Source: a virus. From it: a stretch of DNA of 49,714 nucleotides. Under the pieces are notes generated by a model. That model saw only the letters and a list, made by a program, of their open reading frames with translations. It did no database searches and was not told where the DNA came from. Positions within the stretch are counted from its first letter, which is position 1; every line of letters begins with the position of its first letter. A program made the translations under genes and the position numbers. Below, one piece after another: positions 1,270 through 47,694 of this stretch. Location: IMG/VR virus record IMGVR_UViG_3300033052_000132, positions 1 to 49,714 of that record, one strand, 5' to 3'.

Positions 1270-1417
1270 GCGCAGAAGAGATTGCGGCGACGATAACCTG
1301 AAAGCCATGTGTCAGCGGTGCCATAACCGATACGACGCGCCGATGCGCCGTGCTGGCATTCGTGAGCGCGCCTTTGCTGATCAAGGCATCCTCTTTGCAA
1401 CGGAGCAACCCGCATGA
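1266..1417 (+). pseudogene. remnant of an HNH-like small protein gene (C-terminal part only)
   Basis: An ATG at 1266 with a good GGAGA leader opens an 11-codon frame (MSAEEIAA...) that soon stops. From about 1289 a different frame encodes 42 residues, including 'DNLKAMCQRCHNRYD' and 'MRRAGIRERA', and ends in a TGA overlapping the next ATG. The 'NL.AMCQRCH..YD' element is the usual C-terminal part of small HNH-like phage proteins. The likeliest reading is that an internal deletion or frameshift removed the middle of the gene and left its start signal and its tail. An alternative is that the C-terminal frame is chance coding. Confidence 0.55.
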
Positions 1418-1851
1418 CCGACAATCAAACCGCTAGCGCAGGGGTGACGGTGGAAAACGGATGCGTGGCCTTCCGTCTGCTTGTCTGTGGCGGTCGCGCT
1501 TATAGCGACGAGCGGGCGATGGCTTGGGAACTGTCACGCTGGGCCATGCGGTACGATGGCCTAGAGATCATCACCGGATACGATCCTGACAACGTGCGCT
1601 TTCAGGGTGCTGACCAGTTGGCCCACGAATGGGCGCTGTCGAACGGCATCCCTGCATTTCCGTTTCCCGCGCCGTGGCGGTTGAAAGGCAACTACGCGGG
1701 ACCGTTCCGCAATCAGCGCATGTTGGACTTTGGCAAGCCGCATGGCGTTGTCGCGTTCCCCGGAGGTCGTGGCACTGCCGATATGTGCACGCGCGCCGAG
1801 AGGGCAGGCATCAAGCCTATCCGCATCCCCACACCCCCGGAGGCCGTATGA
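1414..1851 (+). CDS. DUF2493 / SLOG-superfamily nucleotide-binding protein
   Basis: A 145-residue protein of the DUF2493 (YspA/cpYpsA-related SLOG) type. The strand-loop 'LLVCGGRAYSD' near residue 22 is followed by 'GADQLAHEWA' near residue 65, and 'GPFRNQRMLD' and 'GVVAFPGGRGTADMC' follow near residues 97 and 112. The glycine-rich 'PGGRGT' is the nucleotide- or ligand-binding loop of this Rossmann-like fold. SLOG proteins bind nucleotide-derived ligands and are common phage cargo, but their substrate is generally unknown. The gene starts ATGA over the stop of the preceding remnant, and its own stop overlaps the next ATG, so it is translated as part of the chain. Confidence 0.8.
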   Translation: MTDNQTASAGVTVENGCVAFRLLVCGGRAYSDERAMAWELSRWAMRYDGLEIITGYDPDNVRFQGADQLAHEWALSNGIPAFPFPAPWRLKGNYAGPFRNQRMLDFGKPHGVVAFPGGRGTADMCTRAERAGIKPIRIPTPPEAV

Positions 1852-9149: not shown

Positions 9150-10397
9150 ATGAACCTGTTTGACGTTACGCCCGGATTCCAGACGTTCTATGGCCCGCGG
9201 GGCAAGGAAAAGCGCAACGATAAGGCGCGGCCTGCCACTAAGCAGGAGATGAAAGCCTATCTGATCTGGCTTGCGGACCAGCGCGGCGTTTGGTTGCCGC
9301 ATGATGCGGAATACTGCCTAGACGGCGTTCATTCCAAGAGCGCGGGCGGCATTGTCTTGGAGATGCCGGGCTACGGGCAGGACCAGCGCGTCACAATGGA
9401 AACGCTCGATGATGCCGGGGAAGTGGTCGCAAGCCAGACTTTGCCCGTGGAGCCCAAGAAGGGCGGGGTGATCTGGGATAAGGCAGCGGTGCGCAAAGCC
9501 TGCGGCCCGGTTGACAAGCCTGCCAAGGGGAAGCGCGCCAAGGTTGCGGACCCTATCCCGGTTGCCGCGCCGGAACCTGTAACGATTGCTGATGAGTTGC
9601 CCGCGCCCGTTGCGGCCGCCGTGGAGACGCAAGAGGCCCTTGCCCCTACCTGCGACAAGCCAGAACCGGCGATTGCGCCCACGGCCGCCCCTGCGGTCGA
9701 TATTGACGCCATAATCGCCCGTCTCGATGCACTGGAGCAAGCCCTTGCCACCCTATCGGCGGTAAGCGTTGACGATCGTGAAATAACAACAAGCCCGGTT
9801 GCCGTTACTGAAGCGGCCTCTTGTGATCATCTACCAAAGCGCACGCCGGCACATGAGCGGGCCATCCGTAGGGCCTGGGCAGAGCGGAAGGCGCGGCGCG
9901 CTGCTGAATCTGCAAACGCCGATTGGGAAGCACTGCAACACCGTACATGGGAGCAGGCAATGGGGCACAAGGTCGCACGCCGCCGCGCCGTCATCGATGC
10001 CCGCAAAAGGATTGCTTATTGGCGCAACCTTTCGCGCATGTGGCAGCAATCATCGGCCGAATATCATGGTCATCTTGAGCGGGACATGGACAAGCGCATT
10101 GCGACTGCCCAGCGAGCGCGCCGCATGATCGCAGCGGCCCGCGCCCAGATCGATCTCAAGACCCGCGCCCTAGACATTACCAACGCGACCGTTGCCCGGC
10201 TCAAGAGCAGCGCGGTCCCCGCAAGTGAGATTGCCCGCCTGGAGCAGGAACGGGATGTAGCCCAGACCGCCCTTGCGGCCATGGTGGCAAGAGCAGAGCG
10301 GGCAGAGCAGGGTATCGAGACTATGGGGGAAAGGTTCGCTTCCCTTGTCGGCCGACTGAGCAAGGCAGAGGCAGCATTGCAGGAACGGGCGGCTTAA
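9150..10397 (+). CDS. large coiled-coil protein, function unknown
   Basis: A 415-residue protein with three parts. Residues 1-120 form a compact N-terminal domain ('MNLFDVTPGFQTFYG', 'YLIWLADQRGVWLP', 'GGIVLEMPGYGQDQRV'). Residues 120-190 are a Pro/Ala-rich linker. From about 190 to the end it is predominantly helical with long Arg/Glu/Ala coiled-coil segments. AAGGA nine bases upstream supports ATG 9150 over an in-frame ATG at 9135. It is by far the largest gene of this operon. A structural or DNA-organising role is possible, but no homologous family is recognised by eye. Confidence 0.65.
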   Translation: MNLFDVTPGFQTFYGPRGKEKRNDKARPATKQEMKAYLIWLADQRGVWLPHDAEYCLDGVHSKSAGGIVLEMPGYGQDQRVTMETLDDAGEVVASQTLPVEPKKGGVIWDKAAVRKACGPVDKPAKGKRAKVADPIPVAAPEPVTIADELPAPVAAAVETQEALAPTCDKPEPAIAPTAAPAVDIDAIIARLDALEQALATLSAVSVDDREITTSPVAVTEAASCDHLPKRTPAHERAIRRAWAERKARRAAESANADWEALQHRTWEQAMGHKVARRRAVIDARKRIAYWRNLSRMWQQSSAEYHGHLERDMDKRIATAQRARRMIAAARAQIDLKTRALDITNATVARLKSSAVPASEIARLEQERDVAQTALAAMVARAERAEQGIETMGERFASLVGRLSKAEAALQERAA

Positions 10398-10412
10398 CCC
10401 TACCGGCGATAA

Positions 10413-10492
10413 GTGGTCGACCAAGGCAAAAGCCCGCAATATCTGGGCCTAGCGCCTGCAATTGCGGTGGAATCCCGCGTTTAGTCGACCAC
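10413..10492. ncRNA. nested inverted repeats upstream of the ligase gene
   Basis: GTGGTCGAC (10413-10421) is perfectly inverted as GTCGACCAC (10484-10492). Inside it CCGCAAT (10434-10440) is inverted as ATTGCGG (10461-10467), with a short GC hairpin within that. The whole 80-base element could fold into one long branched stem. It lies in the 185-base gap before the ligase gene, between CCCTACCGG (10398) and TCGGTGAAG (10498). It might be a structured leader, a small RNA or a protein-binding DNA site. Confidence 0.4.
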
Positions 10493-10582
10493 CCCTTTCG
10501 GTGAAGCCGCGCGTGCGATATGAACGACGCGCCGGGAGTGCTCACCCCGGCCACGCAACAGAGCATAGGAAAGGATCGGACA

Positions 10583-11239
10583 ATGCAGCTTGCACAACTG
10601 GCTTCCGATTGGCGCGGGAACGTCCTGCCCTATGGGATGATGGCAGAATTGAAGCATGACGGATTCAGATGCCTACGCTTCCGGGACATTGAGGGCCGCA
10701 ATCGGCTTTGGACCCGTAACGGAATGCCGATTGAGGGATGCGACCATATCGCCCACCGCCTGGACCTGATCGAGCAGGAAGCCGGGGAACCGCTCTTCAT
10801 TGATGGCGAGTTGGTGGTCGATGGCTCTCTTGCCGCCACAAAGCGCTGGGTCGAAACGGATTGGCGCATGGGCGGGGAGAAGGGCACATTCTACGCCTTC
10901 GACGTTCTACCCTACCGTGAGTGGCAGAAGGGCGGGACCAATCGCCCGCTGTGTGAGCGCAAGGCCATGCTCAAGAAGCTGATCGATGCGGTCGGAGAAC
11001 CTTGGGAATGGCGCCCGCGCAGCCATGGGCGAGACGAGGGGGCTACCCCGGTTGTCTATGTCGATGATGAGTGGGTTTTCACGCCGGAGCAGGCCCTATC
11101 CGTGGCGCGCGGTAAGTGGGCGCAGGATCTTGAGGGCGCGATGCTCAAGGACCCCGAGGCCGGATATGTCCGGGGCCGCAATGGGCACTGGCTCAAGGTA
11201 AAGCAGGCCAACGCCCACAAGTGGAGCATGGCAGCGTGA
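10583..11239 (+). CDS. minimal ATP-dependent DNA ligase
   Basis: A 218-residue phage-type ATP-dependent DNA ligase, which seals nicks through a lysyl-AMP intermediate. The motifs occur in order: I 'ELKHDGFR' (adenylated Lys24), Ia/II 'WTRNGMPI', III 'FIDGELVV' (about residue 75), IIIa 'TFYAFDVLP', IV 'LEGAMLKD', V 'WLKVKQ'. It comprises the nucleotidyltransferase core only, with no room for a full OB-fold domain or added DNA-binding domain. AGGAAAGGA lies before ATG 10583; in-frame upstream starts lack a site. It is followed by a GTG start overlapping its stop. It may act in phage replication or repair. Confidence 0.9.
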   Translation: MQLAQLASDWRGNVLPYGMMAELKHDGFRCLRFRDIEGRNRLWTRNGMPIEGCDHIAHRLDLIEQEAGEPLFIDGELVVDGSLAATKRWVETDWRMGGEKGTFYAFDVLPYREWQKGGTNRPLCERKAMLKKLIDAVGEPWEWRPRSHGRDEGATPVVYVDDEWVFTPEQALSVARGKWAQDLEGAMLKDPEAGYVRGRNGHWLKVKQANAHKWSMAA

Positions 11240-17462: not shown

Positions 17463-20218
17463 CTCTTGGTTTCGATGGCGATGAGGGAGCGGTAGGAGAC
17501 ATCGCAGGACCCACCGGAGCCGGTCTGAAGGAATGCCTGCACCTTGTATGTGCGCGTTCCTGAGGACGGCGTGTCAGTGATGCTGAGCGAGAAGCTGCGG
17601 CTTTCGTCCTGGTACGACCAGTTCTCGACCGGGCCGTAGATCACCGTTGCATCGCGCAGGATGCGGAAACGGAGAATGTTGTAGATCCCGCTTGCGATCT
17701 GAGCCGCCTGCCCATTGAAAAGTAGCAGGATCGGTGCGCCAGACGCCGAGACAGTGATGCTCTGGACGTCAACCCAAGAGCCTGAGGTCAGCGCAACAGA
17801 GGTTGTAGTGTAGGCGTTGCTGGTGACGCTGACGGCATTAGGCTGGATGGCAGGCGTGGGGACTTGATTGCTTGCCACACCGCCGCCAGCGTTGATCGTA
17901 CCCGATACGTCCCCCGCCGTGATTGTTCCGACTGGAGTTCCTGAAGGTGCGCCGACCGTCGCCCCAGCCTGTATGCCAGACAACTTCGACGATTCAGTGG
18001 TGTTGATGTCAGCAAGCGCAATCGGCTTTCCACTCAGCGCATTGTAGGCCGAAAGCGCATTTGCGCCAGTGACCCAGGCACCTCCCGAGCGGAGTTTGAA
18101 AACGGCGAACGTTCCTGAAGTATCGACCCACAGATCGCCGTCGATCGGCGATGAGGGGGCGGTGCTGCTATACGTCACCACATTGCGCGTTGCATTGTCT
18201 GCGGGGCGCCCCGAACCAGATACGCCTGCCCATGTGGATACAGTTGCGGCTTGGGCCTTGATCGCCCGGTCAAGGTCATACAGCGCATTGTCGTAGGTAT
18301 CGCGAGCAGAGTTAAACGAAGCGCGCGCTACTACCGTATCTTGCGTGGTGTCGTTCCAAGCCGGGGAGATCCCAGCGAGAAAACTGATCCAAGCCGTGCG
18401 TGCCGAAGACGCTGCTGCTGTGCTGACCGAAAGCGATGCTGCAACGCTAGATAGCGCCGTCCACTTGTCCTCAAGCCGCGTGTTTTCTGGAATGAGTTTG
18501 GTGATCTTCTCGTTGCGAGTGATCAGGTTGTCGTCAGCAAGGCCAATAAGCTGATCGATCGCATCGTTTGCGCTAGTGTAAGCGGCATCGGCTTGGATCA
18601 GAGTGTCCCGCAACGCCTGATTTGCGGAAAGCGTCCATGCTATCCGAGGGCGAAATCCGGCAAGTGTGATCGCAAACCCGTCGAGAAGAATGCCGCCTTC
18701 GTTGACGCGATCATAGAAAGTCCCATCGGGCGCAATCCACGTATCTCCTACGTTGCTTTCCGCAACCGAAGGCATTGACAGCCCGGTCCAAACCTTACCT
18801 CTCGAAAGCGCGAGTGCGTACGCAGCCGCAACATCAGCGGAAGTAGCAGCGCCGATGCTTGCTGGGGCGATGGGAGGCGTCCGGTTCGACCAGTAGGCAT
18901 TGCTTGTGGTCGGCCAAGTAGGAGGAGCATTCCCGGATGAAGCCGTGGCATTGATGTATACCCAGGTCGAGCCGTCTGCCAGATCGACAATATTGCCTTC
19001 GCGATAGGTTGTCCCGGCAGCGTAAAGGCCCAGTGGCACCAACTCGGCAGTGAACGCGATCTCATCCGAGGTCTGCGTTCTCCAGCAGCGATTGGCCCCG
19101 AAGATGGTCTGGTAGTACGGGAGGCTGACATCTGCCTCATCGGAGGCGATGACTTGCGGCATGGCCGCGCCCTGCGCATTGAGGGTGATGACCTCGCTAC
19201 CTGAAAGCGTGACAGCCAGCGTGAACCATTTGCCTGGTAGGGTGATGCCGCTCTGCCAGTTGCAAGCCAGCGCCAATTGGGCGGCCATCTCTCGCCATTG
19301 CACCTGCTCGGTCAGAACCAGGTTGATGGGGTAGGGCACTGCCGTATCGAGAGAGGTGAGCGTAGCCGTTTCGATATTGGCCGTGCTTACCCCTGCAATT
19401 GTGGCGAGAGCCGAGATGACCGCGCCACTGAGGCGAGGGGTGGTGCCTCCGACGCGATGGCCGCGCACATCGCCCGTGATGACACCAGCAGCAGGAGCGC
19501 CCAGACGCACCATGCCCGCAGCCAAGCAGGTTCCCCAACGGCCTGCCGGGATGGTGGCAGCAACCAGCGCGGCATACGTGGCATAGTCGCCGACTGAAGC
19601 GCCAAAGCTGGCCGCACGCTCATAAAGGACCGAGACGGCCTCGATCGCACCATATCCTGAGAACTGATAAACGCTGTTCACTGCGTCGACCAGGATGGGC
19701 TCAACGTTCTGCGCCCAACCGACAACCAGCGGTTTCAGTCGCCCCTTGAGGTCCGCGCCGCCTTCCGCCCCACCAGTACCGGCATAGGTCGCGGTGAGAA
19801 TGTTCTTGTCGAACAACTCGGTTTCGATGCTCGCATTGATCGTGAGCACATCGCTGCGCCGGCTGTAGCTGGCGACCCGCCCTTTGAAGCGCGTCGACCA
19901 TGGCCATGCAGTGCCGGGCTCTTCCGCATAGATCTCGACCGGAGCGCCAGACCAATTGTACGCATCGCACCCGGCATAGGTCATCTTCAGGACGCCCATG
20001 TTCACTGAGAACGAAGCGCCGCCCGTGTCGATCGGCTCACGGAAATCGCCCTGCCAAAGGTTGATCGACAATGTGGGAGATGCCGCCATAGCAGGTTCCC
20101 ACACCTGCCCGTTTAAGCCAGTGACGGCACGATTTTGCGCAGACGAGATGTAGAGATCGACCCGGTTTCCCGTTGATGGATTGAGAGGGGAAACCTTCGC
20201 GAGGCAGACAATCGGCAT
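17459..20218 (-). CDS. large tail-tip / host-specificity protein
   Basis: A 919-residue protein directly downstream of the tape measure gene. N-terminal residues 1-340 have mixed beta motifs ('FKGRVASYSRRSDVLTINAS', 'GWAQNVEPILVDAVNSVYQF') like tail-tip baseplate hub proteins. Residues 400-640 have a carbohydrate-binding-like 'YAAGTTYREGNIVDLADGSTW' (split) and helical repeats. The C-terminal 250 residues are Thr/Ser/Gly-rich fibre-like. The reading frame extends six bases further to a TTG, but the ATG at 20218 overlaps the tape measure stop as TAATG and is preferred. Likely receptor-facing tail protein. Confidence 0.7.
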   Translation of the reverse strand: MPIVCLAKVSPLNPSTGNRVDLYISSAQNRAVTGLNGQVWEPAMAASPTLSINLWQGDFREPIDTGGASFSVNMGVLKMTYAGCDAYNWSGAPVEIYAEEPGTAWPWSTRFKGRVASYSRRSDVLTINASIETELFDKNILTATYAGTGGAEGGADLKGRLKPLVVGWAQNVEPILVDAVNSVYQFSGYGAIEAVSVLYERAASFGASVGDYATYAALVAATIPAGRWGTCLAAGMVRLGAPAAGVITGDVRGHRVGGTTPRLSGAVISALATIAGVSTANIETATLTSLDTAVPYPINLVLTEQVQWREMAAQLALACNWQSGITLPGKWFTLAVTLSGSEVITLNAQGAAMPQVIASDEADVSLPYYQTIFGANRCWRTQTSDEIAFTAELVPLGLYAAGTTYREGNIVDLADGSTWVYINATASSGNAPPTWPTTSNAYWSNRTPPIAPASIGAATSADVAAAYALALSRGKVWTGLSMPSVAESNVGDTWIAPDGTFYDRVNEGGILLDGFAITLAGFRPRIAWTLSANQALRDTLIQADAAYTSANDAIDQLIGLADDNLITRNEKITKLIPENTRLEDKWTALSSVAASLSVSTAAASSARTAWISFLAGISPAWNDTTQDTVVARASFNSARDTYDNALYDLDRAIKAQAATVSTWAGVSGSGRPADNATRNVVTYSSTAPSSPIDGDLWVDTSGTFAVFKLRSGGAWVTGANALSAYNALSGKPIALADINTTESSKLSGIQAGATVGAPSGTPVGTITAGDVSGTINAGGGVASNQVPTPAIQPNAVSVTSNAYTTTSVALTSGSWVDVQSITVSASGAPILLLFNGQAAQIASGIYNILRFRILRDATVIYGPVENWSYQDESRSFSLSITDTPSSGTRTYKVQAFLQTGSGGSCDVSYRSLIAIETKR

Positions 20219-23200
20219 TACCAAGCACCTCGCGAAGACAGGAGCGAGGTCACGTCGACGCCAGAGTTGTTGTTCGCCACCTTGATCTGCAGCGCAGCCA
20301 CAAGGTTTTCGTTGATGCCGCCCAGCGCTGCGACGATTGCAGCCGTCTGCGCATCGATCGCGCTCGTGGTCGCCTGCTGTTGCGTAGCCAGATCCTTGAA
20401 CGGGCTGTCGCTCACGTTCGCGGCGTCAATCTTGGCCTGCTCGGAGGTGAGGGCGCCATTGGAAAGGTCCGTTACTTCCTTGAGCAGGTCGAAGAACGGT
20501 GAAGTCGAACCAAAGATTTGCCGTTGAATATCAAGCAGGCTTTGTGCCGCATCTGAAAACTCAGAGAACGCCGAGGTGTCACCTGCTGCTACGCGCGCCT
20601 TGAGCGGGTTGTAAATCGCCTGCGCCGATGCCTGACGATCTCTTAGGCTGTAGAAGTCCGAACCAATCTTCAGACTTTGCTGCAGAGACTTTAGGGGGCC
20701 AAGCGTTGCCTCCTGAGCCTGCTTGACCGCATCCTTCCTCTTCAGGCCATACAGTTCTTCAAGGCTCCCCAATTCCTCAGCAGACGCGCCGGCCTCCTTG
20801 AAGATGTCGATCAGGTCGGAGAACTGGCTGTTGAGATCATCCAGCGCTGCACCCACCGGGTCTTTGATCGCCTTCAATTGCTTGAATACGTCGCCGAACT
20901 TCACCGCCTTCTCGACTTGAGACTGAAGGTTGCCATTCGCCATGATGAGGCGCTTTTGGGCATCCTTCATTCCGAGGAATGCTCCATCAGCTACCGCCTC
21001 GCGCACCGCGAACTCCGCCGCCTGCTGCTCGTTCTCAAAGGTGAAAACACCGCGAGCACCCGTATTTACGACATAACGATCATTTCGTTTGCCAAAGTCG
21101 AAGTCGTAGTTTCCGAGCCGGGTGCCGAGAGTCTTGGCGAGGCTCGCAATTGTATCAACCAAGCCGCCAGCGGCCTCAGATGCATCGTTCTGCAGATCCT
21201 TTGTGCGACCATAAGTGCCGACCACAGATCCATTGCGGACCTGCGCGTAGCCAGAGTTTACCTTCTTGCCGAACAGGTTGCCGAGCAGACCACCCGCGAT
21301 TGATCCGATGATCTGCCCGCCAGGGATTGGAATGAAGGAGCCGATAGCGCCGCCGATCTGCGAACCGGTCTTCGACATCTTCAGCCCTAGGGCATTACTG
21401 ATATCGGAGATCATCGATCCGGTTTGGGCACCACCTAACGCTTTATCGAATTTGCCGAGAATCTTGTCTCCAAGCTTCTCGCCAAAGAGATCCTTGCCGT
21501 AGTCAAATGCCAAACCGCGCGCTGCACCGAGGCCTGCTCCAAATTTGGTGCCAAGCGCTGCATAGCCCCCAATTGCACCGCCGATTGTGTTTGTGAATTT
21601 GGACAGGAACGTGCGCCCGCCCAAGGCACCCTCTAGCGCCGCGATCAATTTTGAGCCGATCGAGTTCCCCATTCGCATGAAGAAATCTGCCGGAGTAAGA
21701 TCATTCACGGTGGTCTTAACAGGCTTGTTTGCCTTTGCGCCGGCAACAGTGATCGGGTTCGGATCGCCATCGTAAGCCGGGTTCCGAATGGATGCTGGAA
21801 TCGACAACGAAGCGGGCCAACCCCAAGAGGTTGTTGCATTTGGCCCTGAAACCAGCCCGGCTGAAGGCGTTCCGATACCAGAAATACGGCGTGTTGCGTC
21901 GGCTAGTGCGTCGGCCATGAGGCCAGCAGCAGAACCAGCCCGTTCTGTCTCTGACGTCAAGATATCCACGCTATCCTTGATGCCGGTCTCCTTTTTCACC
22001 CAGCGATCAAGGTCACGGAACATATCCCCAAATAGTTGCTCAGTGAGCACCTTGCCCTGAACGTTTTGGAACTGACGTTTGATAACCGACCCAAGACTGG
22101 CGAGGCTTCCATAGCCACCAAGTACGCCTTCGACCTCCTGACGTATTGAGCGAGTCGCATCGAGGTACGAGGATTGCACTTCGGCTGCGCGCTGCATTTC
22201 CTCGCTAATGCGTTGATACGCGACCGCCGTCGCCGTGACCTCTTTCTTCTGCGCTTCAGTTAAAGTGATGCGGCTGCGCTCTAGTTGGGTGATTTGCTGA
22301 AGAGCCTGTGCCTCACCATCGCGGCCTTGCAGCAGAAGCATTTGGTACTGGATCTGCTGCTGCGTTTCTTTCGTGATATCGCGAAGAGGTCGAAGCAGTG
22401 CGTCTTGGATGACGCCCTTTGCAGCCTCTGCATCTGCAATCATCTGCTTGAAACCTGCCGGCTGCTGCTCATTCAATTCAGCAATCGTCCGATCCAGTTC
22501 GCGTGTAGCTGCAGCGGCTTGATCGACCAGGCGAGGCTGCTCATTGAAGCGCTCGTTGATCCGGGCAATTGTTTCAGCAGCCGACTTGCCGAAGTTATCA
22601 ATCTGCTCGATTTCCCGCAGAACTTTATCCGCGCCAGAAGTGCTCCACTCCACATGGAAATGGCCGCGCTCCTTGAAGACCTTCGTAAGCCGAACCCCCT
22701 CATCAGCAAAAGCCTTGCGAATAGAGGCCGGGGTCACGCCCTGCCCGAACTGGATGTCCAACGCATTTCCACGTTCGTGAGCACTGGTTCCAGGCTTCGC
22801 GACAGGATTGTCAGACGGGCGGCCAGCCGCGACCCACTGATCATACAACGCCTTCTGCTTACTGAAGGATCGGTCTGCGGAGTTGACCTGAAATCCGGCT
22901 TTCCGCGCGATCGAAGACGCTTCAGAAGAACTGATCTCGCGACCACTCATCCCGCTGCTCGAGGCCCGCGAAGGGGTCAGCGCATCAAGCGCCGCTTTCT
23001 TCTGACGCTCCAAGGCTTTGACTTGGCGCTCGAGAGATTCACCAACCTTGCCTTCAGCAACCGCACGTCGCCGCGCCTGTTCAATCAGTCTCTTGTAACG
23101 ATCCTCGATCACTTGCACGGGATCGGCTGCACGCCGTCCCCGCTCCACGTCGAAGAACGATTGGGCTCGACCAAAATTGCCCTGCGCCACCTTAACAGCT

Positions 23201-24369
23201 TCGGTCGCCTTACGCAGGCGCTCCTCTAAAGCCGAGGCTTGCCGCGTTGAGTTTTCAAAACCAAAGGTGGCGTTTTCACCCCTTTGCCCTGGAGCTTGGG
23301 CACGAATGCGCTGGATCTCCTGCTCTGCTAAAGCTTGCTGGAGCAGGGCCTCAGTGGTTCGTCGAATCTGAATTTCCCGATCAAGATTTGCCTTTGCATC
23401 ATCACGCGCACGCTGAGCCGAGCTAACAAGTGACTTTTCCTGCTGATCGAGAGCCTCCCTCTGATCAAGTATGGCCTTTCGGACCCCCTCTTCTGTTTTC
23501 TTGAATAGTTCTTTCGCAAGCCGCGCCTTTTCGGTTTCCTCTGCATCCTTTTTGAGTTTTGCAACAAGCTCATCGAGAGCATTACCAGAGTTCAGCAACT
23601 CCGAAATGAAGGGTGCAAGAACAGCAGTTGCTGCAAAGATCGCCGCACCCCAAGGTCCTGCAAGGAACTGGGCAGCTTTGCCGATCCGAGCCTGAAATTT
23701 GTTCGTGCTTTCGGTCAGACCGGAAAGCGCGAATGCCATTTGGGGGACCTGCTGCACGAAGATCGTTGTCGCGTTGGTGCCCGCTTGGGTTTGCACCACC
23801 ACGTCCTGCAACTGTTGACCTAATTGCGTGAAAGCTACACGCTGGGCACGAATGCCGTTGATAACGTTGCCCATTTCGGAGGTGCCGCGCCTTGTTGCTG
23901 CGACCACAGCATCCGTTGCCGAAGCCTGGCGATTTAATCGCTCTTGCACCTGCTCTGCGGCCTGAGCATGAGCACGAGCCTGTGCGGCGGCGCGCTCTTC
24001 TTCTATTGCTAGCGCTTGTGTTGCCGCGACAGCGAGGCGTGTTTTTTGCGAATAGTCTCCCTCTTCCTTGGCAGCGAGCGCGGTGGCGGCGGCGACTTCC
24101 CGCGCAGCAATTGCGCGAGCATTTTGCGCAGCCGCTGCGGCGCGCAATTCATCCACGCCGAGGTCCAAGGAACCAGCGCTGTTGCGCTTAACAGAAAGCG
24201 CCGCGTCTAGTTGGGTCCGGGCCTCATTGCTGAAGTCCTTGAACAGCTTGCCCGCATCGTTCGTCATCTTTGCGACTTCGGCAAGGAAAGACGATTTGGC
24301 GCTACCATCGTTCTGATAGACCGCACGCACGTTCAGCGGTGCGAACTTGTATCCACCTGCCACGTTCAC
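20218..24369 (-). CDS. tail tape measure protein with built-in M15-type peptidase domain
   Basis: A 1383-residue tape measure protein that sets tail length and crosses the envelope during DNA entry. Residues 1-180 and 290-470 are alpha-helical coiled coils; hydrophobic stretches occur near 235-260 and about 1000-1060 ('GSFIPIPGGQIIGSIAGGLL'). Around residues 480-577 lies a peptidase M15/VanY-like domain: 'SAHERGNALD' (about 529-538) supplies the first zinc ligands and 'HFHVEW' (about 570-575) the last ones. That should cut peptidoglycan peptides as DNA is injected. The start overlaps the stop of the DUF6441-like gene (ATGA). Confidence 0.85.
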   Translation of the reverse strand: MNVAGGYKFAPLNVRAVYQNDGSAKSSFLAEVAKMTNDAGKLFKDFSNEARTQLDAALSVKRNSAGSLDLGVDELRAAAAAQNARAIAAREVAAATALAAKEEGDYSQKTRLAVAATQALAIEEERAAAQARAHAQAAEQVQERLNRQASATDAVVAATRRGTSEMGNVINGIRAQRVAFTQLGQQLQDVVVQTQAGTNATTIFVQQVPQMAFALSGLTESTNKFQARIGKAAQFLAGPWGAAIFAATAVLAPFISELLNSGNALDELVAKLKKDAEETEKARLAKELFKKTEEGVRKAILDQREALDQQEKSLVSSAQRARDDAKANLDREIQIRRTTEALLQQALAEQEIQRIRAQAPGQRGENATFGFENSTRQASALEERLRKATEAVKVAQGNFGRAQSFFDVERGRRAADPVQVIEDRYKRLIEQARRRAVAEGKVGESLERQVKALERQKKAALDALTPSRASSSGMSGREISSSEASSIARKAGFQVNSADRSFSKQKALYDQWVAAGRPSDNPVAKPGTSAHERGNALDIQFGQGVTPASIRKAFADEGVRLTKVFKERGHFHVEWSTSGADKVLREIEQIDNFGKSAAETIARINERFNEQPRLVDQAAAATRELDRTIAELNEQQPAGFKQMIADAEAAKGVIQDALLRPLRDITKETQQQIQYQMLLLQGRDGEAQALQQITQLERSRITLTEAQKKEVTATAVAYQRISEEMQRAAEVQSSYLDATRSIRQEVEGVLGGYGSLASLGSVIKRQFQNVQGKVLTEQLFGDMFRDLDRWVKKETGIKDSVDILTSETERAGSAAGLMADALADATRRISGIGTPSAGLVSGPNATTSWGWPASLSIPASIRNPAYDGDPNPITVAGAKANKPVKTTVNDLTPADFFMRMGNSIGSKLIAALEGALGGRTFLSKFTNTIGGAIGGYAALGTKFGAGLGAARGLAFDYGKDLFGEKLGDKILGKFDKALGGAQTGSMISDISNALGLKMSKTGSQIGGAIGSFIPIPGGQIIGSIAGGLLGNLFGKKVNSGYAQVRNGSVVGTYGRTKDLQNDASEAAGGLVDTIASLAKTLGTRLGNYDFDFGKRNDRYVVNTGARGVFTFENEQQAAEFAVREAVADGAFLGMKDAQKRLIMANGNLQSQVEKAVKFGDVFKQLKAIKDPVGAALDDLNSQFSDLIDIFKEAGASAEELGSLEELYGLKRKDAVKQAQEATLGPLKSLQQSLKIGSDFYSLRDRQASAQAIYNPLKARVAAGDTSAFSEFSDAAQSLLDIQRQIFGSTSPFFDLLKEVTDLSNGALTSEQAKIDAANVSDSPFKDLATQQQATTSAIDAQTAAIVAALGGINENLVAALQIKVANNNSGVDVTSLLSSRGAW

Positions 24370-25091
24370 ACCTTCCTGAGTTCATTGCCGATCAAGGCCG
24401 GCAGTTCCTTCGCCACTTCGCTCAGCAGCGCTTGAATATTGATGCGCGCGGAGCGCGAGGTTCTCGGAATTGCGATGAAGCAAACAAGCAGTTGCTTTCG
24501 AATTTGCCCTTTGCGAGCCACGCCCCTCTTGGTCAGGCCACGGGCTGACCGAGCGGCACCGGTTGCAGAAACACCAACGTTCTCTACCGCCGCCAGAGGC
24601 CAGCCATTGGCTGACTTGAGGTAACGCAGAGGCCCCAACTTGGCCTCCATGCCCAACTCCGCCCAATTGCCAGGCGTGAGACGGCGCTTGTTCTTGCCTT
24701 TCCCGGCAACCCGCTGCATCGCGTCTGTCGGAATCCACAGCCAGCGTCCGCGGACTGGGGCGATAGTCGATCCTTCCACATAGGATTGGATCGCCCCCAA
24801 GGTGCGCTCAGACTTCGACCGGACATAGACGGTGCCCGATGCGCTGAACCCGCCATTGCTGTAGCGCCGCTGGATGCCACCACGCTCTTCATCTGAGGTA
24901 GAGCCAAAAGCATTGCCAAGACGGCCAAGGCCAGCACCGGCCATGGCTTGGCGGATGCCGTTCTTCAGCCGCTTCGCCCCCCGATCGGTTGCGCGCAGCA
25001 TGGCGCCTTCCAAAACCACACCGGTATCTTTGAAGAAGCTGTCAACGTAGGCGTCAATGCCATCCGCATTCAGCGTAACAGTCAGCTTCAT
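24366..25091 (-). CDS. DUF6441-like tail-region protein
   Basis: A 241-residue basic protein upstream of the tape measure gene. It has 'RGAKRLKNGIRQAMAGAGLG', 'GSTIAPVRGRWLWIPTDA' and 'GKGKNKRRLTPGNW', consistent with the DUF6441 family found beside tape measure genes in alphaproteobacterial phages, where it takes the place of minor tail proteins. The stop overlaps the tape measure start. Family assignment is by pattern only. Confidence 0.65.
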   Translation of the reverse strand: MKLTVTLNADGIDAYVDSFFKDTGVVLEGAMLRATDRGAKRLKNGIRQAMAGAGLGRLGNAFGSTSDEERGGIQRRYSNGGFSASGTVYVRSKSERTLGAIQSYVEGSTIAPVRGRWLWIPTDAMQRVAGKGKNKRRLTPGNWAELGMEAKLGPLRYLKSANGWPLAAVENVGVSATGAARSARGLTKRGVARKGQIRKQLLVCFIAIPRTSRSARINIQALLSEVAKELPALIGNELRKV

Positions 25092-25106
25092 TCAATGCTC
25101 CAATGA

Positions 25107-25134
25107 AAAAGGGGAGCCGTTTCCGACTCCCCTT
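25107..25134 (-). terminator. rho-independent terminator after the antirepressor gene
   Basis: On the minus strand AAGGGGAG and CTCCCCTT pair, with extra CG pairs in the loop, followed by TTTTTC. It lies between the antirepressor stop (25160) and the next leftward gene (25091), so the antirepressor unit appears to be transcribed separately from the tail genes below it. Confidence 0.75.
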
Positions 25135-25159
25135 CGTTGGGTCAGTGCTCTTGATGGAT

Positions 25160-25738
25160 TTAGGCGACTTCGGTTTGACCTTCGCCAGCATGATTGATCA
25201 TAGAATAATTGAACAGGTCGTTTTGCGAGGGCGTGACCATGCTCGGAACAATCGGCAAGCCCTGCCGGAACCACATTTCGCGCGCAGCCACTTGACTGAA
25301 CGTCTGCCGCGCCTCCGTCACCAAACGAAGCCGTTCCGCTGTTGTCGGCAATTCATCAGGCGCGGTATCGAACTGCCGCGGGCGCATATTGCCTGCGAAA
25401 TGATCGTGCAGCACCTGATAGCACTCGCGCTGGTACAGGATGACCCGCTCGCGCACAGTTTCATCCTTGATCCGGCCACTGTCGATGCCGAACAGCCACC
25501 CGTTGACCAGTTCAAGTTTGATGCAAAGGGCATCTTGGGCGCCACCACGACCGAAAGGTATATGCATGACACATATACCTTCGCTCAAAACGGGGTCACG
25601 TTTGACACGTTGCTCTTGCCCAGACCAATTCAAACCCATGGCTTCCACCATAGGCTTGAGGGCTAAGAACGTGCCATCATCCTGCTTGAACCCGTAGAGT
25701 TCATCTCCACGGAAGTTGACAGTAACAATTTCGCCCAT
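25160..25738 (-). CDS. phage antirepressor (P22_AR N-terminal domain)
   Basis: A 192-residue protein with the N-terminal domain of P22-type antirepressors: 'YGFKQDDGTFLALKPMVEAMG', split over residues 15-35, and 'LVNGWLFGIDSGRIKDE' with 'RERVILYQRECYQVLHDHF' later on. In P22 such proteins bind and inactivate the prophage repressor and are silenced by Arc and Mnt. The C-terminal half here is shorter and different. AAGGAGG lies before the ATG. The 5' leader has striking competing hairpins and a terminator follows. It sits among tail genes, as P22 immI does. Confidence 0.85.
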   Translation of the reverse strand: MGEIVTVNFRGDELYGFKQDDGTFLALKPMVEAMGLNWSGQEQRVKRDPVLSEGICVMHIPFGRGGAQDALCIKLELVNGWLFGIDSGRIKDETVRERVILYQRECYQVLHDHFAGNMRPRQFDTAPDELPTTAERLRLVTEARQTFSQVAAREMWFRQGLPIVPSMVTPSQNDLFNYSMINHAGEGQTEVA

Positions 25739-25759
25739 AAAGGGCCTCCTTGGTTTGGC

Positions 25760-25850
25760 GCTGTGACCGCCATGCTAAAACGGAGCCGCCGCGCTGTATG
25801 GTTTTAGCGGCACACAACGCGGCGGCTCCCCCAAGACCCGTCACAGTCGG
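25760..25850 (-). promoter_or_regulatory. antirepressor leader with competing hairpins
   Basis: On the minus strand the 160-base leader of the antirepressor gene contains two perfect stems whose arms interleave: GGAGCCGCCGCG with CGCGGCGGCTCC (12 pairs), and GCTAAAAC with GTTTTAGC (8 pairs). Both lie inside a closing pair CTGTGAC/GTCACAG. The two stems cannot both form easily because no loop separates the adjacent arms, so the leader may switch between two folds. That suggests control of antirepressor translation or transcription, for example by a small RNA or protein. Confidence 0.55.
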
Positions 25851-25902
25851 GCCTCGATCTCGGTATCTGGTGTAATTTTCTGATTTGGATCTGTTACCGC
25901 CC

Positions 25903-26265
25903 TCAGGCGGCGGTCAGCCTGCGGATATCGCTGGCAAGCACCTTCATCACGTCGCTCACTTCCTCGCCGTTCTCGAAGAAACTCACAGTCATGCCGATGT
26001 CGATTTTTTCGGCAATCGCACTCAGATGCGGGGCTGGAGTCTCAAGCAATGCCTTGACCGCATCGTAGTGAGCCGCCGTGTAAGGTGCCCAACCCTCTTC
26101 AGCAGATCGCGCTTCTTCGTATATCGCCGCACCATCATCAAGTGCGCGATAAACTGGTATCGTGATCTCTTTGCGGTAGCGGTTCATCACAGACCGCGCA
26201 AAGCGTTCTGCCCTGATTGCACCTTCCCATGCGGAAGGCTTGGGCGTATTGGCCATCTCAGCCAT
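25903..26265 (-). CDS. hypothetical protein of the immI-like module
   Basis: A 120-residue protein with AAGGAG nine bases before ATG 26265; an in-frame start 29 codons upstream has no site and would read through the divergent promoter. Helical N-terminal half ('RFARSVMNRYRKEITIPVYRAL', split), then 'IAEKIDIGMTVSFFENGEEV'. It starts next to the divergent ribbon-helix-helix gene and precedes the antirepressor leader. The stop lies within an ACCGCC/GGCGGT hairpin. Not recognised. Context suggests a regulator or accessory immunity protein. Confidence 0.55.
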   Translation of the reverse strand: MAEMANTPKPSAWEGAIRAERFARSVMNRYRKEITIPVYRALDDGAAIYEEARSAEEGWAPYTAAHYDAVKALLETPAPHLSAIAEKIDIGMTVSFFENGEEVSDVMKVLASDIRRLTAA

Positions 26266-26339
26266 GACCTGATCTCCTTGTGATCGGTTGTGGTTAGGAG
26301 CCGGGGCGAGGTTGCACCCTTGCCTCGGCTCTGATTTCG

Positions 26340-26387
26340 TGTTAACGCGCAATCATGAGCACGTCAACTGGTGATAACACGCAATCG
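26340..26387. promoter_or_regulatory. operator-like repeats at the divergent ribbon-helix-helix gene
   Basis: TAACGCGCAATCA (26343-26355) and TAACACGCAATCG (26375-26387) are near-identical direct repeats around the start codon at 26355, and GTGTTA just before the first copy is inverted as TAACAC in the second. Ribbon-helix-helix repressors bind such short tandem or inverted sites. Autoregulation is inferred. Confidence 0.5.
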
Positions 26388-26549
26388 CGAAAAAAGCGCC
26401 CTACTCAGACCGGTGAGCTTATAGGAACCCGATTGCAGCCCGAATTGTTGGCGACACTTGATGCTTGGAGAGCCAAGCAGCCAGATTTGCCAAACAGACC
26501 GGAAGCAATAAGAAGGCTTCTTACGACAGCGCTTAGCTCATTGGTATAG
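26355..26549 (+). CDS. ribbon-helix-helix (Arc/Mnt-like) DNA-binding protein
   Basis: A 64-residue basic protein on the opposite strand to the tail genes. After a Lys/Arg-rich N-terminus it has 'TRLQPELLATLDAWRAKQ' and 'NRPEAIRRLLTTAL', the strand-helix-helix pattern of Arc/MetJ-type repressors. No Shine-Dalgarno sequence precedes the ATG, so translation may be leaderless or weak. It is divergent from the 25903-26265 gene across a short promoter region with repeats, and close to the antirepressor, so a role in repressing it is likely. Confidence 0.75.
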   Translation: MSTSTGDNTQSRKKRPTQTGELIGTRLQPELLATLDAWRAKQPDLPNRPEAIRRLLTTALSSLV

Positions 26550-26774
26550 CTCTTGGTCCTTCAGACATTGGCTTTGTTGTTCGATTGACCAACTTGTATA
26601 CTCTGCAGAATTTCGTTCATCCGCTACAGCATCGATGACTTTTTGAGCTTCAAGGCATAATGTTCTTGCAGAGGCAGATTGCTCTCGCAAGAATTCATAC
26701 CGCTGCTTGGCTCGTTCTGCTTCGGACTGGCATCCGACCAGCAGGAGCGTTCCGAGTATAAAAACCTTACTCAT
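26538..26774 (-). CDS. small lipoprotein
   Basis: A 78-residue protein with a lipoprotein signal peptide ('VFILGTLLLVGC', Cys15) followed by a charged helical domain with two more cysteines ('ARTLCLEAQ' and 'QQSQCLKDQ'). ATG 26774 overlaps the stop of the frameshifted tail chaperone frame (ATGA), which couples it to that product. It overlaps the end of the convergent ribbon-helix-helix gene by 12 bases. It may alter the cell envelope of the lysogen (superinfection exclusion), but that is only a guess from type. Confidence 0.65.
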   Translation of the reverse strand: MSKVFILGTLLLVGCQSEAERAKQRYEFLREQSASARTLCLEAQKVIDAVADERNSAEYTSWSIEQQSQCLKDQELYQ

Positions 26775-27708
26775 TCTGGCCGTCTCACTCTCAGTGCTGC
26801 CTTTGCTGAACTGATGACGGAGAAGGCTTCCAAGAGCAACAAAGGCTGATCAAGAAGCGCGCCCCCATCGGGATATACGAAACCGGCCATGCCGCGATCG
26901 CAGTCCCGATGAATACGCAGCAAACTCCAATGATCTTCCGTTACCCGGTTGCGCGGGTTTTCTTTGAACGTGCCGACGCCTGGGATTTCCCAGCCTTTTC
27001 CGAGGTGATCTTCTCGTTCGAAAGCACCGGGGCAGTCGGCGATTGCGACTGCGATTCGGAGTTTCCCACTTCACTCCGGTCCAAGTACATCCGCCGAGAG
27101 CACGCGACCGTCAGTTCACTCCAAGCATTGCCTTCTTCAAGGCCGTGCTGCGCTTCACATGCAGCTAAGGCATCCTCAATGGATTCGGCAGTTTCCACAG
27201 TAAGGTATCCCCTCTCAAGGCGCGCAGACACGGGAAGGTTGGTGAAACCCTTGACCGTAACCGCAACAAGCATCGGCGCGGCGAGATTCCCATATTCCGA
27301 ATTGTCCGCCAGCATTCGTCTGAGCGGTGGCCATGATTGACGGATGTTATGGAGGAGCCGATTGACAGCTTCTTCAATAGCTTTGTCATAATTCCAGACC
27401 AGCGCTGGATCATCTTTTAATTGCGCATCGTAATCGTCGCGCGCTTCCCAATAGGCCTTCACGACCGGGACTTGCTGCTCAAAAATCTCAGCGTCCCACA
27501 TTTGCTCTAGCCCTTTGAGCACTTCTGCTCGGATGGCTTGGTGATCATGAAAGGCAATGCCTTCTTCCACCAAGAGACGGCGGTGGAATCGCTTGTCGCG
27601 CGAAGAGGGGGCCCGAAGCCGGAATACAGGTGCGTCCTCCAAGGCTTCAAGGCTGGCGGGGGTGAAGGCGAGCACTTCGCTCGCCTCCAAAGGGATGTCC
27701 TGGGGCAC
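26771..27708 (-). CDS. tail assembly chaperone, GT-type product by programmed -1 frameshift
   Basis: The 255-residue G frame (next entry) contains GGGAAAC at minus 27067-27061, with the heptamer phased as G GGA AAC relative to the zero frame, the standard -1 slippery phasing. After a -1 slip the frame stays open from 27061 to a TGA at 26773-26771, adding 96 residues ('LRIAVAIADCPGAFERED', then 'GWEIPGVGTFKENP', then 'PDGGALLDQPLLLLEAF'). The fused protein is 312 residues. Lambda G and GT arise the same way from GGGAAAG. The new stop overlaps the next gene's ATG. The other open frame here (+1) has no such signal. Confidence 0.8.
26941..27708 (-). CDS. tail assembly chaperone, G-type product
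   Basis: A 255-residue protein starting at GTG 27708 with AAAGGA ten bases upstream, which lies where lambda G lies: between the tail tube and the tape measure. Residues 20-60 read 'FTPASLEALEDAPVFRLRAP' and 'RDKRFHRRLLVEEG'. Most of the body is helical, with 'GNLAAPMLVAVTVKGF' near residue 145. The last 40 residues (Ser/Lys/Thr-rich) are replaced when the ribosome shifts frame at residue 215. Role inferred from position and the frameshift. Confidence 0.75.
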   Translation of the reverse strand: MPQDIPLEASEVLAFTPASLEALEDAPVFRLRAPSSRDKRFHRRLLVEEGIAFHDHQAIRAEVLKGLEQMWDAEIFEQQVPVVKAYWEARDDYDAQLKDDPALVWNYDKAIEEAVNRLLHNIRQSWPPLRRMLADNSEYGNLAAPMLVAVTVKGFTNLPVSARLERGYLTVETAESIEDALAACEAQHGLEEGNAWSELTVACSRRMYLDRSEVGNSESQSQSPTAPVLSNEKITSEKAGKSQASARSKKTRATG

Positions 27709-27756
27709 TCAGGATTGTCCTTTCAGATGTGTCCTGCCGTGTGGCAGGCAAGGTTG

Positions 27757-28533
27757 ATGAGAAACTTTTTCCAGATCCTGGAGATTAGGGACCACGGGAA
27801 CCTGATGACCCGTGACGACCTCAAGGAGAGGTTGCGCTCGCACAGTCCTGACAAGCACTACGTCTATGTCATTTGGAGATGCGATAAGCCCCATTGCGAG
27901 CCGATGTATGTCGGCAAGGGTAAGGGCCGAAGGGTATTTAATCACTTCTACGCCAAAGACCGCACGAACCTTCTGAAGAAGGCGATCTGCGACAAAATGC
28001 GCCGCAAAGGTTTCGAGCCCATCTACTCCCTGATCGGCGTTGAGATGACCGATGAAGAGGCGATGGAATTGGAAACGTCCGCCATTCGGAAGGTTGGACG
28101 TATTATTGAACGGAAAGGCCCGCTGACCAATTTCACCGAAGGAGGTGAAGGATCTGCAGTGACCCGAAAGCGAGGCGCGAACCATGGTCGGGCTCGCGCA
28201 GTGGTTGCCGGTGGTGTTCGGTTTGAGATGATGTCACAGGCTGCAAATGCCTTGAACATCTCGCTTTCGAACATCCACCTGCGAATTTCTACCGGTTGGC
28301 AGGGGTACTATTACGTCGATGAGGGGCAGCGTTCCAGAAGTAAACCGCCGAAGGGATCTCCAGAGCATATTTCCCGAATGAGGGCCGTGTGTCGTAATTC
28401 AGCCCAGAAAGTGTCAGTTGACGGGATAATGTTCAAGTCTCTTAGCGCCGCTGCGACACATTTGGGCGTTTCCTACGCTACCGTAAGAAATAGATGTCGC
28501 AGCGGCTACTCTGGATATTCTTTCGTCAACTAG
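27757..28533 (+). CDS. GIY-YIG homing endonuclease with two NUMOD-like repeats
   Basis: A 258-residue protein on the opposite strand, between the tail chaperone and tail tube genes. 'HYVYVIWRC' and 'MYVGKGKGRRVFNHF' form the GIY-YIG catalytic core near residues 32-63 (Tyr and Arg of that motif present), with 'MELETSAIRKVG' following. After a linker there are two similar DNA-binding units, 'GVRFEMMSQAANALNISLSN' and 'GIMFKSLSAAATHLGVSYAT', as in NUMOD modules. The first ATG with usable spacing is 27757; 27727 and 27805 are alternatives. It ends with TAG inside the palindrome CTAG, which also supplies the stop for the tail tube gene on the other strand. Confidence 0.8.
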   Translation: MRNFFQILEIRDHGNLMTRDDLKERLRSHSPDKHYVYVIWRCDKPHCEPMYVGKGKGRRVFNHFYAKDRTNLLKKAICDKMRRKGFEPIYSLIGVEMTDEEAMELETSAIRKVGRIIERKGPLTNFTEGGEGSAVTRKRGANHGRARAVVAGGVRFEMMSQAANALNISLSNIHLRISTGWQGYYYVDEGQRSRSKPPKGSPEHISRMRAVCRNSAQKVSVDGIMFKSLSAAATHLGVSYATVRNRCRSGYSGYSFVN

Positions 28534-46613: not shown

Positions 46614-47158
46614 TTTGCACCTCCGAGGATCGGGCGGAGGACTTCATCCGCGACCCACGGGGCTTTGATGCCCTGCAGATCTAAAGCATAATCCAACAGG
46701 CCAAGCGCGTCGGCTTCGTCGTGCGTCTTTGGCTTCCACCCATAATGACGACACCGCTCAATGGCATAATCCTTGAGCGCCTTCGTCTTGGTTCCACGAG
46801 GCATTGAGCCAAGGAAATGGCGGCGCCAAGACTTCATGTTGACGCCCATGCAGATACGAATGTTGTACGCTTCCGCGAAACTCTCGGCGTGCCCCACTAG
46901 CTTCAACTGTACATCGTTGGCGGGGTTAGACGCGCCACCACGTTCCACCTGGGTCAGAGGCTTTTCATAGTAGATCGAGGTGAAGGGCATGACCTGATGC
47001 AGATCAGCCAATACGCGATGCAGCTTCAGGCACGTTCGACCATCAGTGGTGAACTCAGAGCCTAGCTGGATTGCAGCGTATCGCGGCGACTCCCAGCCTT
47101 CTGACCAGACAGCCCAGCCAGTTGAACGCTTTGACAAATCTAGGGCGAGGGTTGTCAT
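46610..47158 (-). CDS. RuvC-like Holliday junction resolvase
   Basis: A 182-residue RNase H-fold nuclease of the RuvC type, which resolves branched DNA during packaging or recombination. Catalytic acids are visible: Asp7 in 'LALDLSKRSTGWAV', Glu65 in 'YYEKPL' and the pair in 'HDEADALGLL' (Asp147/Asp150). It lies in the replication region after a homing-type HNH nuclease gene. The length fits the family (about 175). Confidence 0.85.
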   Translation of the reverse strand: MTTLALDLSKRSTGWAVWSEGWESPRYAAIQLGSEFTTDGRTCLKLHRVLADLHQVMPFTSIYYEKPLTQVERGGASNPANDVQLKLVGHAESFAEAYNIRICMGVNMKSWRRHFLGSMPRGTKTKALKDYAIERCRHYGWKPKTHDEADALGLLDYALDLQGIKAPWVADEVLRPILGGAK

Positions 47159-47694
47159 GCGCGCCGCCCGTGGTTGGGATGGAAATCACTTTCCTTGAGC
47201 GCCGCCTCGCGCGCCGCGATTGCATCGGCCTTCTTCTCGAATATGCCGATGTATTGGCAGCGACCGGGCGACTTAAGCTGAGCGACCCATCTTCCATTCT
47301 GATGGCGAGAGACACCCATGACGCCGCTTGTGTTGCGGATTGAGACACGGAGATTCCGAGAATTTCCTCGGTTATCAGTATTCCGCAGATTGCAGATGCG
47401 GTTGTCTTTGGTGTCACCGTTCACATGGTCGATTACATTGGGCCATTCACCGAAGTGCAGAGCCCATGCTACGCGATGAGCAAGATATTGCTTGTTCGCT
47501 ATTGAACCGACGCGATAACCAACGCCATTGTCCGCAGTGAGTGCTGGGCGTCCTGCGTATCGAGCATTCCAAGTGGAACATGCACGCTTGGTTGCGAACC
47601 ACTCACGCCCTCGGGTTTTCCATGTCAGAATCCCTGTTTCCGGGTCATAGGCGAGCAGGGTTCGAATGTCTTTGATGGGAATTTCGCGGTTCAT
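47155..47694 (-). CDS. HNH homing endonuclease with AP2-type DNA-binding domain
   Basis: A 179-residue protein. 'HRVAWALHFGEWPNVIDHVN' (20 residues) followed by 'GDTKDNRICNLRNTDNRGN' forms the HNH nuclease; 'SGVMGVSRHQNGRWVAQL' and 'FEKKADAIAAREAAL' form an AP2-like domain, a usual pairing in phage homing nucleases. ATG 47694 is preferred over an upstream in-frame start. Stop overlaps the RuvC start. It inserts next to essential genes without disrupting them. Confidence 0.85.
   Translation of the reverse strand: MNREIPIKDIRTLLAYDPETGILTWKTRGREWFATKRACSTWNARYAGRPALTADNGVGYRVGSIANKQYLAHRVAWALHFGEWPNVIDHVNGDTKDNRICNLRNTDNRGNSRNLRVSIRNTSGVMGVSRHQNGRWVAQLKSPGRCQYIGIFEKKADAIAAREAALKESDFHPNHGRRA

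Follow-up and report, generated by a model that had tools for sequence, protein, structure and literature searches.

A P22_AR-type antirepressor module with an apparent C4-type leader RNA in a phage tail gene block

Gene content and setting of the antirepressor module

The window analyzed here is the whole of a single virus contig (IMG/VR record IMGVR_UViG_3300033052_000132; 49,714 bp), and the features of interest are collected in Table 1. On the minus strand, the module is ordered as an ORF designated MID, a leader RNA, the antirepressor gene ant and a terminator, and a gene for a ribbon-helix-helix (RHH) protein is transcribed divergently. The ant product carries the domain by which P22_AR antirepressors are defined, matching Pfam P22_AR_N (PF10547) over residues 6-115 (E 1.2e-26; 93.6 bits against a cut-off of 30.7) and PHROG 524, annotated as "anti-repressor Ant" (1.7e-37). 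Its relatives share 52-81% identity with it. The ORF is intact, and it is 80% identical in locus L002, where ant occupies the same place. Downstream of ant, two 11-nt inverted arms (25109-25119 and 25124-25134) are followed by TTTTT on the minus strand; this terminator is absent from the list of a consensus terminator scan.

The original prediction described these parts (P22_AR-type antirepressor, divergent RHH protein, operator-like repeats, an intervening protein of no known family, a structured leader and a downstream terminator) and placed them between tail chaperone and tape measure genes. Each part is borne out by the searches reported here, and the tail-gene setting also holds, with the chaperone identified by position, the tape measure by a TMP_2 match below the cut-off, and one further tail-block gene lying between ant and the putative tape measure gene. 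The ORF in the chaperone position has no family match in Pfam or PHROGs, and a PHROG search with the putative tape measure protein gave no match either; the latter contains a VanY-type peptidase domain (PF02557, 1.6e-5). The head genes of the window (major head protein, portal and terminase) are firmly identified. No DNA-level relatives of positions 24300-27800 were found in the phage collection. Locus L082 has a collinear tail block without the module, with the chaperone-position gene extending to 8759 and its neighbor beginning at 8916, so the module can be regarded as an insertion in late genes, as is P22 immI.

Table 1. Features of the antirepressor module and its surroundings, in window coordinates unless a locus is given
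Feature	Position	Strand	Description or basis
Putative tape measure gene	20218-24369	-	1383 aa; Pfam TMP_2 E 0.0013, below cut-off
Tail-block gene	24366-25091		between module and 1383-aa ORF
Intrinsic terminator 3' of ant	25109-25134	-	inverted arms and T tract
ant	25160-25738	-	P22_AR-type antirepressor, 192 aa; PF10547 and phrog_524
Shine-Dalgarno sequence of ant	25745-25751	-	read from sequence
ant leader RNA	25756-25855	-	C4-type architecture, without tetraloop hairpin P1 in the window; covariance model and covariation
Hairpin P4	25756-25772	-	loop shows target a (TCACAG, 25761-25766); 17 nt from ant start codon
Target b	25774-25781	-	GTTTTAGC; immediately 3' of P3, complementary to b'
Hairpin P3	25782-25829	-	loop bears b' (GCTAAAAC, 25801-25808)
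Hairpin P2	25833-25855	-	loop (25841-25847) bears a' (CTGTGA)
MID	25903-26265	-	120-aa ORF, upstream of leader RNA and ant, same strand
Hairpin in MID 5' leader	26297-26332		15 bp; similar sequence in L010
Palindromic operator candidate	26333-26354		abuts RHH start codon
RHH (CopG-type) protein gene	26355-26549	+	64 aa, putative repressor; PHROG 4738, weak RHH_1
Second operator half-site (candidate)	26371-26386		inside RHH 5' coding region, 32 nt on
Small lipoprotein-like ORF	26538-26774	-	between tail-chaperone position and module; conserved in L002 (31%, 4.6e-11)
ORF in tail-chaperone position	26941-27708		named by position alone
sRNA-Xcc1 before ant, examples	L016:547-631; L017:5661-5745; L174:2376-2459; L083:6845-6931		further examples, among others, in L020, L022, L023 and L033

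Several other features of the window deserve mention. A second-frame extension (26771-26923, minus strand; ..DRGMAGFVYPDGGALLDQPLLL..) follows the chaperone-position gene and finds its match in an overlapping frame of L002; it probably represents a programmed frameshift of the tail chaperone. A gene resembling GIY-YIG homing endonucleases (27538-28533, plus strand; I-TevI DNA-binding domain, 6.6e-10) lies, in opposite orientation, between the genes for the putative tail tube and chaperone, and the corresponding gap in L002 and L082 is too small to hold it. Lipoprotein-like small ORFs recur near ant modules (the window, L002:7381-7599, L007:2494-2838, L115 and L096). In P22, sieA is located in the ant region, according to the part of the source consulted (PMC2629481), and by analogy these ORFs may be superinfection-exclusion genes. 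Elsewhere, the window encodes an HNH endonuclease (HNH_3; 47155-47694, minus strand) and a SLOG-family YAcAr protein (1414-1848, plus strand). At its left end (about 787-840), a stretch read by eye resembles the 3' half of a tRNA gene and adjoins host-like DNA; ARAGORN found no tRNA in the window. Such a sequence would fit a prophage end, possibly an attachment-site remnant.

The record yielded neither an integrase gene nor a repressor on which Ant could act, and it lacks a second attachment site; among ten ORFs scanned, no CI-like repressor was recognized. Antirepressors that target other prophages are known, and together with the lack of a CI-like repressor among the scanned ORFs this lends something to the idea that Ant acts on other prophages of the host rather than on its own induction, or that it is a remnant. 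Such a role is nevertheless unlikely, given the intact ORF and its conservation in L002, and the record may have been cut before its own repressor and integrase genes.

The divergent RHH gene, its operator candidate and MID

The RHH protein matches PHROG 4738, annotated as "transcriptional repressor" (2.2e-7), and Pfam RHH_1 at an E value below the cut-off (0.044); its homolog in L010 passes RHH_1. An RPEAxRRL core is conserved with three relatives, and a structure model (mean pLDDT 71.8) has helices at residues 29-41 and 48-63, placed correctly for an RHH fold. At the start codon of the gene lies a 22-nt palindrome in which 18 of 22 positions match, a score reached by 10 of the 49,693 22-mers of the window, and one arm of a direct repeat (26339-26354) recurs at 26371-26386. 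The corresponding site is a perfect 18-nt palindrome in L007 and matches at 14 of 16 positions in L010, each with a downstream half-site, so that the three loci share a two-site layout with different sequences; weaker operator palindromes are present in L005 and L110. Such variation is expected of an autoregulator whose specificity changes. No RHH gene was found beside either of the two ants closest to that of the window (L002 by tblastn, L090 by eye), and the RHH gene is thus not obligate to the module.

No family in Pfam, PHROGs or NCBIfam matches MID, a tblastn search of IMG/VR found no relative of it, and the pLDDT of its single-sequence structure model (44.7) is too low for interpretation. 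The ORFs found in its place in L110, L007 and L005 are unrelated to it, while RHH and ant stay together. The motif of the hairpin in the MID 5' leader (GAGGCAAGGG..GCAACC) was considered as a second conserved RNA and rejected: it is present in 35 IMG/VR stretches, two of which have an adjoining RHH gene of the window type.

RHH proteins are common antitoxins, and toxin-antitoxin-like genes lie near ants in L011 and ABMM1. RHH and MID could accordingly be a toxin-antitoxin pair inserted beside ant, with the operator serving the pair. We consider this highly improbable: the two genes are divergent rather than co-transcribed, MID lacks IMG/VR relatives, and it is replaced by unrelated ORFs in other loci.

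A structured leader RNA with complementary loops

When the DNA 5' of the ants is aligned, a shared structured stretch emerges that ends just before the ribosome-binding site (RBS). The window leader folds with -61.9 kcal/mol (z -4.2), a value that none of 200 shuffles equaled, and the nine sequences tested fold into separate hairpins in each member, with z scores from -2.6 to -6.1. Thirteen distinct leaders were parsed into hairpins P1, P2, P3 and P4, and L005 was left out. The helices pair in all 13 in a parse allowing gaps, and the end of P4 is located 17-22 nt from the ant start codon in every one. The tetraloop hairpin P1 is present in 11 of 13, being missing from the window and L110. A short CCC/GGG hairpin that spans the start codon of ant was set aside; it is mostly 3-4 bp long and is present in loci with an Arc-like ORF as well.

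The loops of P2 and P4 are complementary to each other, as are the P3 loop and the strand 3' of P3. Between the P2 and P4 loops, a Watson-Crick run of at least 6 (6-7 nt) is found in 13/13 leaders with their own partner and in 12/156 swapped pairs; between the P3 loop and the 3' strand, a run of at least 5 (5-8 nt) is found in 12/13 (L004 fails) and in 23/156 swapped pairs. The observed pairing sums were reached by none of 100,000 permutations. The pairing segments were picked with the folds in view, and the P3/3' pairing partly by seeking complementarity, and for this reason the comparison was repeated with a broader target: when the P2 loop is set against the 50-nt stretch spanning -70 to -20, a run of at least 6 occurs in all 13 own pairs and in 17 of 156 swapped ones.

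Covariation was assessed in A13, an alignment of nine sequences made with a covariance model that excludes the loop pairs (pseudoknots are not represented in such models). In A13, 90.6% of cells pair and 39 of 46 pairs are changed on both sides, a number that none of 500 shuffles reached. In the kissing helix between the P2 and P4 loops, 92.3% of cells pair and 6/6 pairs are changed on both sides; in the P3/3' helix, only 64.5% of cells pair and 5/8 pairs are changed on both sides. P2 and P3 are misplaced in MAFFT alignments A3-A5 and A7-A8, which were excluded from the counts, and covariance-model alignments A9, A11 and A12, which contained antisense echoes of palindromic stems, were replaced by A13. 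Loops vary in sequence among members, and what is conserved is mainly the pairings.

Covariance models recover the leader from limited training. R1, built from L002 and L090 only, recovers the leaders of the window (E 1.2e-9) and of L007 (2e-8). With filters off, R2 ranks six of seven further leaders as the six best matches in 65.6 kb and finds rhizobial leaders. R3 finds L095, L110 and L116, which lie outside its training, at E 5e-4, 0.008 and 0.03, before ants. In 49 loci, the sense-strand matches of R3 lie just 5' of an ant; weak antisense matches are taken as echoes of palindromic stems. Among 385 sampled alphaproteobacterial genomes, R3 found a single ant leader, from the center genome itself, and two weak matches (E 0.03 and 0.04), neither near an ant. 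From these comparisons, the leader appears to be a conserved RNA of a new family in alphaproteobacterial phages, C4-type by its architecture.

Leader RNA and Arc-like genes among close ant relatives

The distribution of the leader was surveyed among 23 distinct ants (the window, L002-L007, L010, L011, L090-L096, L109, L110, L113 and L115-L118). Loci holding the same stretch were counted once, and L008 and L009 were taken as copies of L007 (identical match values). Carriers of such a module include Brevundimonas naejangsanensis DSM 23858 (L010/L097) and Sphingopyxis flava (L090). Genes in the loci were called with a codon-usage script, and where no search is cited their names reflect our own sequence reading. 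Seven of the 23 ants (window, L002, L003, L007, L010, L011 and L109) have a tape measure gene on one side and a tail tube or chaperone-position gene on the other, which makes the space just ahead of the tape measure gene a recurrent landing site of ant modules. PHROG matches confirm the tape measure in L003, L007, L010, L011 and L109; for the chaperone they do so in just two loci, L011 and L109. The ants of L006 and L092 follow a chaperone-position gene, and there the contig or the viewed stretch ends first; the setting in L115 is like that in L010. Of the remaining ants, those of L005 and L113 are among baseplate genes, those of L004, L091, L093, L094, L095 and L116 are close to lysis or tail-fiber genes, that of L110 is within the head-tail joining genes, and those of L090, L096, L117 and L118 are at other places.

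The leader RNA is immediately 5' of ant in 16 of 23 (R3 E values from 1.8e-17 to 0.029). In four others (L003, L006, L011 and L096) an Arc-like ORF replaces it, with zero overlap between the two groups. Against the Arc-family model PF03869, the Arc-like ORF passes in L003 and L006, falls short of the cut-off in L096 (E 0.009) and gives no match in L011; a divergent Mnt-like gene passes PF03869 in L003, L011 and L096. L115 has the RNA directly upstream of ant and an Arc-family gene farther upstream, neither the RNA nor an Arc gene is present in L117 or L118, and the L005 leader fits partly, with P1-like, P3-like and b'/b elements only. By eye, no comparable leader precedes the more distant ants of L012, L013, L014, L015 and L019, and a possible b'/b pair was seen in L038 and L077. 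L006 is a myophage whose first ant is of the Arc type; it has a second ant-like gene (9971-10774) with a weak R3 match (9827-9938, E 0.01) directly 5'.

Comparison with the immI regions of P22 and P1

P22 immI (mnt, arc, ant and sar) is an insertion in late genes that has been named an "ant moron" in the part of the source available (PMC2629481). It shares with the window a P22_AR-type ant among late genes, a divergent RHH gene and an RNA that pairs, or in the window is predicted to pair, with ant mRNA. It differs in carrying an Arc-family protein and sar; the window RNA, unlike sar, is on the sense strand within the leader, and the insertion lies before the tape measure gene rather than before the tailspike gene. 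PF03869, which scores above its cut-off in L003, L006, L011, L096 and L115, matches neither RHH nor MID, and Rfam gives no match in the window, sar included, although it detects sar in all three P22-group controls (CUS-3, N7 and UPF_BP1). Of the original description as P22 immI-like, therefore, the ant module inserted in late genes with a divergent RHH gene stands, whereas the Arc gene and sar are missing. The further label Arc/Mnt-like for the RHH protein did not survive, since in family terms the protein matches RHH_1 only, and Arc-family proteins are instead found beside other ants. The module could still be P22 immI proper, in which RHH plays the part of Mnt, Arc is represented by MID or by an overlooked ORF, and the leader is a plain untranslated region. 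The gene order is alike in outline, and the sets beside ant in L003, L011 and L096, all close relatives, are Mnt-Arc-Ant-like. This is quite improbable, however, as the RHH proteins of the window, L007 and L010 match RHH_1 and not Arc, MID has no RHH match, sar is lacking, and the RNA and the Arc-like ORF precede different ants.

The window leader resembles the immI of P1 rather than that of P22, as judged from sequence. According to the portions of two sources consulted, P1 C4 is an antisense RNA in the leader of the ant operon with three stem-loops (tetraloop, a' and b'); RNase P cleaves it, and its pairing targets precede the RBS (PMC5320573; PMC8198154). The cleavage is at the end of the RNA that bears the tetraloop hairpin (PMC5320573, in part). 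In the c4 region of the P1 record (L131), the tetraloop stem is followed in turn by a' (TTTCACTAAC) and b' (CTGTCAA), and these by the targets b (TTTGACAG) and a (GTTAGTGA), with the RBS last. The immI of P1 and P7 (C4, RF01695; icd; ant) and the family described here have in common the order a'-b', then b-a-RBS, within the leader of the ant operon, with the tetraloop hairpin ahead of a' in P1 and in 11 of the 13 leaders parsed, and as in C4, a' and b' of the window are complementary to targets a and b 5' of the RBS. They differ in that P3 of the window family is a long stem-loop, target a lies in a hairpin of its own, the window leader and L110 have no tetraloop hairpin, and the window ant is of the P22_AR type and immediately downstream, with no intervening icd. 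The Rfam C4 model scores P1 at 68.8 bits in L131, and none of the 13 other phage records (the one match, of 16.2 bits and E 0.03, is in that of L010) and no alphaproteobacterial leader exceeds its cut-off. As this model does not match, the likeness to C4 is claimed for architecture rather than for descent, and it may be convergent.

Alternatively, the leader may be confined to action in cis, serving as attenuator, thermometer or ligand-sensing riboswitch, with the kissing loop as a tertiary contact and not an antisense interaction. This would suit the placement of a'/a and b'/b within about 90 nt of one transcript, the display of a in a hairpin loop and the lack of P1 in two members. A ligand pocket, however, would conserve sequence, and here the loops differ while the pairings persist; the order of the elements and the position of the targets also match C4 in P1. 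A leader confined to cis action is hence somewhat unlikely, and the C4-type reading is preferred.

A model for the control of ant

The module is probably an "ant moron" under the control of a new C4-type RNA and an autoregulated RHH protein, silenced at two levels and inserted before the tape measure gene. At the level of transcription, RHH would bind the sites at 26333-26386 and repress its own expression as well as the promoter from which the MID-RNA-ant operon is transcribed. At the level of RNA, leader loops a' and b' would pair with a (in the P4 loop) and b (after P3), in cis or in trans; in the latter case, by analogy with P1 C4, a processed leader RNA could be the acting species. The loop pairing would fold the region before the RBS and thereby block translation of ant. 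If repression fails, Ant would be made and would neutralize the prophage repressor, leading to phage induction, as in the P22 family. A second immunity region controlling induction, as had been proposed for this stretch, is thus plausible by analogy.

sRNA-Xcc1 upstream of gammaproteobacterial ants

Another RNA is found at a comparable place. sRNA-Xcc1 was described, as a bacterial sRNA, in 2010, and the word "antirepressor" does not occur in the text available of that source (PMC2996969). Its Rfam model (RF02221) matches 34 of 45 ant-bearing gammaproteobacterial records, 32 of them above the cut-off, and 0/14 control genomes, and in 33 of the 34 records the RNA is located 34-85 nt 5' of the matched P22_AR-type ant. 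Among 28 distinct examples, the mean complementary run between its loop and the pre-ant region is 7.2 for own and 5.4 for swapped pairs; a run of at least 6 is present in 27/28 own and 329/756 swapped pairs, the high swapped rate arising because sequences near the RBS are shared (permutation 0/20,000). Like the window leader, sRNA-Xcc1 lies directly 5' of a P22_AR-type ant with a loop complementary to the pre-ant region, but it differs in fold and sequence, and RF02221 has no match in the window or in nine loci scanned that carry the alphaproteobacterial type of leader. The pre-ant region is a likely native target of sRNA-Xcc1, on the strength of this complementarity. No paper joining these RNAs to P22_AR ants was found in the open-access literature searched.

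Implications for antirepressor control

How ants are controlled in P22-like phages that lack Arc was a question raised in 2008, in the part of the source at hand (PMC2629481). The module bears on this silencing of P22-type antirepressors without Arc; CUS-3, one of the 2008 cases, carries sar. C4-type leader RNAs could be the default control of P22_AR ants outside the P22 group, the window representing a new alphaproteobacterial kissing-loop family and sRNA-Xcc1 a gammaproteobacterial one that targets the ribosome-binding region of ant. This generalization is offered tentatively, and we lean slightly against it; if it were true, solitary copies in bacterial chromosomes would represent relics of immunity, or decoys that counter the ants of incoming phages. 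The module itself is a candidate model for RNA-controlled lysogeny in alphaproteobacterial phages.
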